64,000 nt of DNA from assembly GCA_024279425.1 (NCBI GenBank), contig JAJRRO010000031.1, positions 1 through 64,000 of the forward strand. Reading direction: 5' to 3'. Both the position numbers and the translations under genes were made by a program. The stretch comes from Bacteroidota bacterium. Its GTDB lineage: Bacteria; Bacteroidota; Bacteroidia; Flavobacteriales; Flavobacteriaceae. The notes below the pieces were generated by a model. That model did not search any database, was not told the origin of the DNA, and was given only the letters and a program-made list of their open reading frames with translations. Position 1 is the first letter of the stretch. Each line of letters starts with the position of its first letter. Below are positions 28,921 to 33,818 of the stretch, piece after piece.

Positions 28921-29544
28921 ATGAAAGGTTTAAAAACACTATTGATTGCGTTGGCCATGTTTGCATTCAATCTCCAAAATGCACAAAACCAAGAAACTAC
29001 CAAAGAGGAATTGTCTTTGGACAAAGGGCCTATATATAGCCAATTTGAATATCTCTATAAGAAATCAGGTAATTATAGATCGGAAGGTAAAAGATATGAA
29101 GTGGTTCGCGTTATATCTTTGGATAAATTGCGTAAAAATGTATTGGATTCACTCAATGCATCCTCAAAAAAAGCTGCCGAACTGAATGCCACGATCTATG
29201 GCCATGAAGCTACCATTACATCGCTCAATAAAAAATTGGAAGAGACCACCAACAATCTGTCCGTTGTGACAAACGAAAAGGATAGCATGTCTTTTTTGGG
29301 TATTTTGGTGTCTAAAGGCACTTATAATTTTATTCTCTGGACCATTATCAGCGGGCTACTTTTGCTATTCCTGCTTTTTGTATTTAAATTTAGAAGGAGT
29401 AACACATTAACACAAGAAGCTAAAACGGCACTTTCCGAAGTTGAGATTGAATATGAGAACCACCGCCGTAGAGCTCTTGAAAGAGAACAAAAAATAAGCA
29501 GGCAATTGCAAGATGAGATAAACAAGTACAAAAAATCAAAATAA
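28921..29544 (+). CDS. coiled-coil single-pass membrane protein upstream of trmD (not a tRNA methyltransferase)
   Basis: 207 residues in this order: signal peptide (LKTLLIALAMFAFNLQNAQ), a short conserved soluble part (FEYLYKKSGNYRSEGKRYEVV), a coiled coil (about 75-120), one membrane helix (FILWTIISGLLLLFLLFVFKF) and a basic C-terminal coiled coil (EYENHRRRALEREQKISRQL). No SAM-binding or SPOUT motif is present. I recall that close relatives are often labelled tRNA (guanine-N1)-methyltransferase merely because they sit before trmD. Real function unknown; the architecture suggests a scaffold linking envelope and cytoplasm. Confidence 0.8.
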   Translation: MKGLKTLLIALAMFAFNLQNAQNQETTKEELSLDKGPIYSQFEYLYKKSGNYRSEGKRYEVVRVISLDKLRKNVLDSLNASSKKAAELNATIYGHEATITSLNKKLEETTNNLSVVTNEKDSMSFLGILVSKGTYNFILWTIISGLLLLFLLFVFKFRRSNTLTQEAKTALSEVEIEYENHRRRALEREQKISRQLQDEINKYKKSK

Positions 29545-30487: not shown

Positions 30488-30549
30488 TGTTAAATTAACC
30501 TCTGACGAAAATCGTGAATGTTGATTGCTTATAATCATAAATCAAAGTA
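30488..30549 (+). promoter_or_regulatory. candidate L19 leader RNA
   Basis: The 62-base leader of rplS holds two simple hairpins: ACGA-AAA-TCGT (30505-30515) and TTGATT...AATCAA (30521-30545), the second ending five bases before the ATG, where it could cover the ribosome-binding region. Ribosomal protein genes often have autoregulatory leaders, and I recall a proposed L19 leader motif in Flavobacteria. Whether this is that motif cannot be settled from one sequence. Confidence 0.4.
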
Positions 30550-30900
30550 ATGGAATCATTAATCAATTTCGTAGAAAACGAGTTTATCTCAAAAAAAGAA
30601 TTTCCTGATTTTTCTGCAGGAGATACAATTACGGTTTACTATGAAATCAAGGAAGGTGAGAAGACACGTACACAGTTTTTTAAAGGTGTGGTCATTCAAC
30701 GAAGAGGTTCAGGTGCAACCGAAACCTTTACAATACGTAAAATGTCTGGTACAGTAGGTGTTGAGCGTATATTCCCGATCAATATGCCAGCTTTGCAAAA
30801 GGTTGAGGTCAATAAAAGAGGTAAAGTACGTAGAGCAAGAATTTACTACTTCAGAGGTCTTACTGGTAAAAAAGCTAGAATCAAGGAGATACGTTCGTAA
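30550..30900 (+). CDS. rplS: 50S ribosomal protein L19
   Basis: 116 residues, normal length. It lies at the 30S-50S interface. FPDFSAGDTITVYYEIKEG, FKGVVIQRRGSG, FTIRKMSGTVGVERIFPIN and KRGKVRRARIYYFRGLTGKKARIKE are the L19 signature segments. The gene is bounded by its own promoter and a strong terminator, so it forms a single-gene unit although trmD lies just upstream. Confidence 0.99.
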   Translation: MESLINFVENEFISKKEFPDFSAGDTITVYYEIKEGEKTRTQFFKGVVIQRRGSGATETFTIRKMSGTVGVERIFPINMPALQKVEVNKRGKVRRARIYYFRGLTGKKARIKEIRS

Positions 30901-30920
30901 AACCTTAGCGAAAATATCAT

Positions 30921-30955
30921 AAAAAAGCATCCTGTACATATGGATGCTTTTTTTT
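30921..30955 (+). terminator. terminator of rplS
   Basis: AAAAAAGCATCC pairs with GGATGCTTTTTT around the loop TGTACATAT, followed by further T residues. It begins 21 bases after the stop codon. Confidence 0.85.
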
Positions 30956-31004
30956 ATGAACAATTGTTGACAACCGAAGTTCATAATATGTTGATTCTTA
31001 AATC

Positions 31005-31035
31005 TTTGTATATTCAGATTTTTTCCTTATATTTA
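31005..31035 (+). promoter_or_regulatory. promoter of the candidate RNA gene
   Basis: TTTG at 31005-31008, exactly 19 bases, then TATATTTA at 31028-31035, one mismatch (last base) from TTTG-N19-TAnnTTTG. No protein gene follows it; the next landmark is the terminator at 31413-31456. Transcription would start near 31040. Confidence 0.6.
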
Positions 31036-31039
31036 GTAC

Positions 31040-31456
31040 ATGGTTTAAGAAACGTCCTCTAGGGATAGTAGGATTAAATCGTTATAGAGTTTACGTTCTT
31101 TATATTGTTGTTCAGTCTTTTAAAAAGTTACGGTAGGATCTGATCAGACCGATATGGATTAAAACGATGAGCATATTGCCAAAAGGCTGTCGCTTTTCCG
31201 GTCAGTATGTGGGTGATTTTGCGTTAAATATAAAACCTAGGTTCTATACTTAAGATGGAAACACTAAAACAATAAGAAGAAATACAATGGAGTTGCTTGG
31301 TTGAAGGATTAAGAACAACAACGTATTTCAAACGTGGAAAGGGTTCTATGGATGCAATCAATGGTTGCGGTTTTGTTGTAAATACAAAATAAAAATCTGT
31401 AGGTCATTTCTAAAAAGCCATATCAACTGTACTCGTACAATGATATGGCTTTTGTT
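31040..31456 (+). ncRNA. candidate structured non-coding RNA, about 415 bases
   Basis: The 698-base gap between rplS and icd has a promoter (31005-31035), a strong orphan terminator (31413-31456) and no sizeable ORF between them. The interval folds consistently: a long-range helix in three blocks, ATAGAG/TTCTAT (31084-31089 with 31344-31349), ACGTT/AACGT (31093-31097 with 31331-31335) and TTGTTGTTC/GAACAACAA (31105-31113 with 31313-31321); an inner arm GACCG/CGGTC (31147-31151 with 31199-31203) around the hairpin AAAAG-CTTTT; and a 3' hairpin GCAA...TTGC (31354-31368). The size is in the range of tmRNA or RNase P RNA, but I see neither family's hallmarks. Identity unknown. Confidence 0.55.
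31413..31456 (+). terminator. orphan terminator ending the candidate RNA
   Basis: A perfect 13-base stem, AAAAGCCATATCA (31413-31425) with TGATATGGCTTTT (31441-31453), and T-rich sequence after it. No protein gene ends just upstream; rplS already has its own terminator 450 bases earlier. Confidence 0.8.
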
Positions 31457-31561
31457 TGTTATAAAACCATCCTCTACCCTCTTTTTTTATCTTGACGAAA
31501 AATATACCCACCCTATACAAATTATGTATATTTTACTGGTAATTAGGAGACCATAAAATTG

Positions 31562-31569
31562 TATATTTG
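31562..31569 (+). promoter_or_regulatory. -7 promoter element of icd
   Basis: TATATTTG, an exact TAnnTTTG match, 29 bases before the ATG. Transcription would start near 31575. The -33 position has no TTTG. Confidence 0.5.
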
Positions 31570-31598
31570 CAGCTTTAAATAAAAAACTACATTTATAG

Positions 31599-33818
<2,220 letters not shown>

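Follow-up and report, generated by a model that had tools for sequence, protein, structure and literature searches.

The question raised by this locus is what lies in the 698 bases between rplS, which ends at 30900 (Pfam Ribosomal_L19), and icd, which starts at 31599 (Pfam monomeric isocitrate dehydrogenase), in the 64,000-nucleotide stretch of flavobacterial DNA analysed here (the window). A preliminary description had proposed an undescribed structured non-coding RNA of about 415 bases, preceded by a promoter with exact spacing and followed by an orphan terminator, with no gene between the two. In keeping with the last point, the longest ORF lying wholly within 31029-31460 encodes 31 aa on the plus strand and 45 aa on the minus strand. 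A hairpin with a T run is visible by eye 3' of rplS (~30922-30956). Further upstream in the window, a 207-aa ORF (28921-29541) ahead of a trmD-like gene has no Pfam match at E <= 0.001.

The promoter-like sequence was present with the spacing described, and its elements recur in relatives. A TAnnTT box occupies the same position in all 37 homologues that we aligned; TTTG stands 17-22 bases ahead of it in 26 of them and TTG in 4 more, and neither motif was seen in 7. A regular expression recovered a similar pair of promoter boxes in 12 of the 14 sequences of a second, diverged group treated below. The 13-base-pair terminator could also be confirmed in the sequence, with further inner pairs and a T-rich tail. 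A general scanner, which seeks another promoter type and terminator loops of 3-8 bases, reported neither element, and its sole terminator-like site on the plus strand was 31353-31369.

The letters of the terminator stem are nearly fixed. Its first seven letters take four forms in the 37 homologues and two in the 14 second-group sequences, compared with 47 forms in 55 for the neighbouring rplS terminator, which varies freely. The forms of the RNA's own stem were recounted at fixed columns; an earlier terminator pattern detects CCAT-like forms only, and some loci had been chosen by it. Such constancy appears to exceed the need of termination alone, and the stem would therefore either be read by a protein or lend one of its arms to pairing. 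All features are collected in Table 1.

Table 1. Predicted features of the rplS-icd interval in window coordinates, with the basis of each
Feature	Position	Strand	Basis
Promoter TTTG-N19-TATATTTA	31005-31035	+	sequence; TTTG 31005-31008, TATATTTA 31028-31035
Candidate RNA gene, ~415 bases	31042-31456	+	conservation and covariation; ends predicted from the promoter and terminator positions
P1, 5' hairpin (31040-31048/31074-31082)	31040-31082	+	90.7% of cells, 6/9 pairs compensated, 12 chosen sequences
Hairpin A (31084-31089/31098-31103), ACGUU in loop	31084-31103	+	98.2% of cells in 37 homologues; 90.4% in second group
Probable pseudoknot, ACGUU 31093-31097/AACGU 31331-31335	31093-31335	+	98.4% of cells, 1 compensated pair, window's group
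P2, long-range helix (31106-31112/31268-31274)	31106-31274	+	95.6% of cells, 7/7 compensated; second group 11 pairs, 98.0%
Middle domain, fast-changing; one hairpin 31171-31175/31206-31210 plus 31181-31185/31193-31197, another 31224-31253	31171-31253	+	79.3-91.7% of cells, 12 chosen sequences
P3 (31279-31285/31323-31329) and inner hairpin 31292-31316	31279-31329	+	91.9% and 87.7% of cells, 13/13 pairs compensated
P4 domain	31337-31410	+	31337-31344/31403-31410, 92.2%; 31348-31352/31396-31400, 95.6%
P4 hairpins	31354-31359/31363-31368; 31372-31375/31385-31388	+	100% and 86.5% of cells
Terminator hairpin, stem letters nearly fixed	31413-31453	+	arms 31413-31425/31441-31453

The fold predicted for 31035-31460 is stabler than those of 100 out of 100 dinucleotide shuffles (z -3.39). 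When the homologues from the same interval of related Flavobacteriaceae were aligned, as the preliminary description had suggested, many compensatory changes became apparent. RNAalifold returned 66 pairs from the 37 sequences, 44 of them with at least one compensated sequence; removing the first P2 pair and adding one P6 pair and the five ACGUU/AACGU pairs gave a fold of 71 pairs, which forms in 95.3% of 2608 cells. In this fold 45 pairs have changed on both sides, giving 147 such cells compared with 37.1 +/- 5.8 in shuffles, counts that favour the structure in so far as it was derived from the very same alignment and that retain one sequence with an insertion (L047) and one short sequence (L048). 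When the partners were slid by 1-3 columns, pairing dropped to 42-48%. Among cells that are not Watson-Crick pairs, G-U outnumbered A-C by 259 to 15 in the 37 homologues and by 156 to 26 in the second group, which identifies the plus strand as the folding strand. P1 and the middle hairpins were paired in 89.4% of cells, with 13 of 30 pairs compensated, in a set of 12 sequences chosen from the 37 (L007 being omitted among those of the genus), a choice that biases the numbers in favour of the fold. For the poorly conserved middle domain, the fold was checked on these 12 sequences only.

The structure drawn earlier agreed with conservation in parts. As a whole it was paired in 72.2% of cells compared with 69.3% +/- 0.7 in shuffles. 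The five-pair block ACGTT/AACGT held up well (one of five pairs compensated, two invariant) and is probably a pseudoknot, and the 3' hairpin at 31354-31368 was paired in every cell. The nine-pair block TTGTTGTTC/GAACAACAA was paired in 81.7% of cells with seven of nine pairs compensated, but one of its pairs is gapped in 27 of the 37 sequences, and its 5' strand pairs better with AACAATA, the partner that forms P2. The AAAAG/CTTTT hairpin was kept in part (71.1% of cells). Neither the six-pair block (50.9% of cells) nor the inner arm 31147-31151/31199-31203 (50.0% and 37.9%) was conserved.

A second group of diverged relatives was analysed on its own alignment, in which 14 of 15 sequences were kept; L124, which gave no match to the fixed hairpin motif, was dropped. 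The resulting 120 pairs form in 93.1% of 1635 cells, and 63 of them show changes on both sides, with 191 such cells compared with 67.7 +/- 7.4 in shuffles; this structure was likewise derived from the alignment on which it was counted. In both groups the parts follow one another in the same sequence, from hairpin A and its ACGUU loop through the long-range P2, P3 and P4 to the terminator. We sought a consistent partner for the ACGUU loop in the second group and saw none. By eye, the inner domain of these sequences (L118:1811-2259 and 13 relatives) is larger and contains several GNRA-like loops, as in RNAs with tertiary contacts. Three loci that are still more diverged (L149, L145 and L156) retain an ACGTTCTTT hairpin together with a terminator stem of the GCCATAAT type, and their intervals may constitute a third group. 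Judged by comparison of the homologues, which gives gene, strand, fold and spread, the rplS-icd interval almost certainly holds a conserved structured RNA gene.

Within the genus, long DNA matches were found in 10 of 12 genomes; the remaining two, with completeness of 68% and 83%, gave chance-level matches only. A covariance model of the 3' part (R1), built from 35 of the 37 sequences and leaving out L047 and L048, recovered the same 10 of 12 genomes, including all 9 of the good ones. Each had a single strong match, and the model's second matches in the genus were the palindromic terminator read backwards. Across the family, DNA similarity alone identified 85 of 299 Flavobacteriaceae genomes (E <= 0.001). 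R1 reported 129 of the 299, with 46 at >= 64 bits; the model is drawn to palindromic terminators, and its lower matches mix diverged relatives with chance palindromes. Inspection of 20 loci scoring <= 81 bits with R1, five of them among the 46 strong ones, identified 18 that have rplS and whose architecture looks right by eye, 16 of which also had icd; the other two, L126 and L127, came from the phylum search described below and are false.

A model made from 15 of the diverged relatives with the terminator excluded (R2) matched 98 of the 299 family genomes, 97 of them at >= 58 bits. The strong R1 set and the R2 set overlap in one genome, which places the RNA in no fewer than 143 of the 299 family genomes. 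There are further carriers that both models miss: L129, L130, L145, L154 and L156 have the hairpin or terminator motif behind rplS in genomes without a strong match to either. Named relatives with the RNA include Maribacter, Arenibacter, Zobellia, Cellulophaga, Flagellimonas, Eudoraea and Kriegella. Among the 80 stretches (named loci) listed from the 88 of a pattern scan, 79 were confirmed by the model. A Gilliamella locus (L191) was a chance pattern match that fails the covariance model.

Searches beyond these lineages gave no convincing match outside Flavobacteriaceae when R1 was run over 395 genomes of the phylum. Fourteen genomes were matched, three of them outside the family at 40.6, 35.2 and 32 bits; of these, L127 was inspected and rejected, and G343 and G576 are known by score only. 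A fourth doubtful match, L126, is inside the family; like L127 it lacks rplS and the right architecture and is false. With filters off, R1 gave at best 38.3 bits on 28 loci, with many weak palindromes. In 15 genomes from four other families of the order R2 scored no higher than 31.1 bits, and in 25 genomes of the large genus g127 no higher than 28.5 bits; R2 also misses the window's own group, so that these scores by themselves do not prove absence. A short hairpin motif occurred in 70 of 395 genomes across the order; its backward control also matches many genomes, and the motif therefore cannot show presence outside the family. Viral contigs gave no match to one motif and two matches to a second at 17.6 bits, resembling the start of another gene, and a viral origin was rejected.

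The genus g127 we infer to be Flavobacterium, as it fills most of the family rows in the phylum and order scans. In 6 of the 9 g127 loci that were read icd follows rplS by 251-310 bases, too close for the RNA, and in the other three no monomeric icd was seen in the stretch. The RNA is therefore not indispensable in the whole family.

No family among the 4227 of Rfam 15 reached its gathering score over 31042-31456, in agreement with the claim that the RNA is undescribed. A permissive scan of 30700-31700 gave 10 matches up to E 5, all below gathering, and the same kind of scan of a second-group homologue (L118:1700-2300) gave none at E <= 1. At gathering level eight homologous loci matched nothing but RF03130, the L19-Flavobacteria leader, which was found in all eight and served as a positive control. 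In the window, too, RF03130 was the one match, at 30496-30523 (47.6 bits). This leader shares the neighbourhood, just upstream of rplS, and is a 29-position cis element, a feature separate from the RNA.

The preliminary description had also seen no features of tmRNA or RNase P RNA, and both of these genes are indeed encoded elsewhere in the genome: tmRNA (RF00023) at C114:7344-7742 with 142.8 bits and RNase P RNA (RF00010) at C120:32366-32684 with 190.7 bits. The 6S-Flavo RNA (RF01685) was found at C51:48916-49025 with 102.2 bits, and none of the three has a match in the window. All three are stand-alone RNAs, as is proposed here, and the first two are of similar length; in contrast to the rplS-icd RNA, each exceeds its family cut-off elsewhere in the same genome. 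OLE, GOLLD and ROOL are likewise long, multi-branched bacterial RNAs kept by structure, and large ornate bacterial RNAs are described as forming homo-oligomeric complexes (PMC12286853). These three appear to differ from the rplS-icd RNA in lineage and in ground plan; the rplS-icd RNA itself gave no gathering-level match of any kind in the Rfam search, which may or may not have included these three families.

Among flavobacterial RNAs, 85 new ones are reported from Flavobacterium psychrophilum (PMC9723704). These RNAs (Rfp1-89) resemble the present candidate in being non-coding and unmatched in Rfam, and for some of them a strong structure is predicted; their median length is 176 compared with ~415 here. 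The main text of that report does not mention rplS or icd, and overlap of the rplS-icd RNA with an Rfp RNA is unlikely because g127 is without this interval. A literature search found no description of the RNA in the text it covered, including parts of PMC9723704 and PMC2864571, with supplementary sequences and most subscription papers outside its scope; a word search of PMC11109978 gave no occurrence. The absence of an Rfam match, the homologues and the covariation all support the proposal of an undescribed structured flavobacterial non-coding RNA of ~415 bases. The candidate is called new in the sense that it matches no known RNA family, and the novelty claim does not extend to mechanism.

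We propose that transcription from its own promoter on the plus strand to its own terminator would yield a free-standing RNA of ~415 bases. This RNA would fold into a 5' hairpin followed by hairpin A, whose loop sequence ACGUU is probably paired with AACGU next to the 3' domain as a pseudoknot. The long-range helix would enclose the fast-changing middle domain, and two conserved 3' helical domains and the near-fixed terminator stem would complete the fold. The RNA would then act in trans as a component of a ribonucleoprotein with a housekeeping role, its fixed loops and terminator stem providing protein-binding or docking sites and its middle domain a lineage-specific arm. In favour of this reading as a whole we counted the covariation in two groups on separate alignments, the excess of G-U over A-C cells, the TAnnTT box in all 37 homologues, the replaceability of either neighbour, the single strong match in each carrier genome of the genus and the constancy of the terminator stem; against it we counted the missing pseudoknot partner in the second group, the 7 of 37 homologues without a recognisable -33 box, the poor conservation of the middle domain and the lack of the RNA at this place in g127. 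A free transcript is very probable, and action in trans is also probable, if slightly less so. That the RNA is a scaffold bound by a putative protein partner, rather than a regulator that pairs with mRNAs, is close to an even call, and the whole chain, from free-standing RNA to housekeeping ribonucleoprotein, falls a little short of that.

The main rival is a large trans-acting regulator that pairs with mRNAs through a conserved loop or an arm of the terminator, which we consider rather unlikely. The 3' arm UGAUAUGGCUUUU contains AUG-GC, so that the complementary sequence AAAAGCCAUAUCA might in principle cover start regions reading AUAUGGC. Such a role would account for stem letters that are more constant than termination requires, and there is a flavobacterial precedent in the sRNA Rfp18, reported to affect metalloprotease mRNA levels (PMC9723704); the length and the many conserved helices, however, would exceed what an antisense RNA needs. 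It is improbable that the RNA belongs to a known class and has diverged so far as to fall below the Rfam thresholds. The length does resemble that of tmRNA and RNase P RNA, and remote relatives get lost in Rfam searches, but tmRNA, RNase P RNA and 6S-Flavo RNA are all accounted for elsewhere in the same genome, the L19 leader was detected in each of the eight homologous loci that otherwise had no gathering-level match, as in the window, and the L118 homologue remained without a match even at the permissive threshold.

Genomic position could suggest that the RNA is a leader or trailer acting in cis on icd or rplS. Both genes flank it in 29 of the 37 loci, and in 16 of the 20 weaker loci inspected; every true locus that was read has the RNA beside at least one of them. 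The RNA nevertheless has its own promoter-like site and terminator, and its neighbours can differ: six of the 37 loci have icd with another gene upstream, within 1.5 kb or so, where rplS would stand, and two have rplS with another gene downstream. Neither rplS nor icd is therefore obligatory, and rplS and icd stand adjacent without the RNA in six of nine g127 loci, which makes a cis element very unlikely. In L034, L035, L037, L041, L051 and L052 the place of rplS directly upstream of the RNA is taken by a large ORF that by eye is carboxypeptidase-regulatory-domain-like. A decayed protein gene, a mobile element or an element acting at the DNA level might be expected from a long intergenic interval, but is extremely improbable. 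Compensatory changes lie far above the shuffled and slid controls and admit G-U but not A-C. In 14 homologues examined by eye the longest ORF was common only to the near-identical pair L008/L009, and the longest of all (93 aa, minus strand) occurs in L005 alone. Carrier genomes of the genus contain a single strong match each, which also counts against this group of readings.

Few large RNAs have complex conserved folds, and known examples such as rRNA, RNase P RNA and tmRNA carry out central tasks. The rplS-icd RNA may be the first record of a new large structured bacterial RNA class, old within Flavobacteriaceae and built from a pseudoknotted core, a rapidly evolving inner domain and a near-fixed terminator stem, that serves a ribonucleoprotein or an RNA-only complex and is not an antisense regulator, a reading to which we give roughly equal chances of being right or wrong. 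Lineages with rplS and icd side by side but without the RNA would offer a natural comparison. Relatives in Maribacter, Zobellia and Cellulophaga carry the RNA, and deletion and pull-down are therefore thinkable. If the proposal is true, an RNA of 400-500 bases that many genera within a major bacterial family have kept, and without a match in Rfam, would represent a new RNA class.
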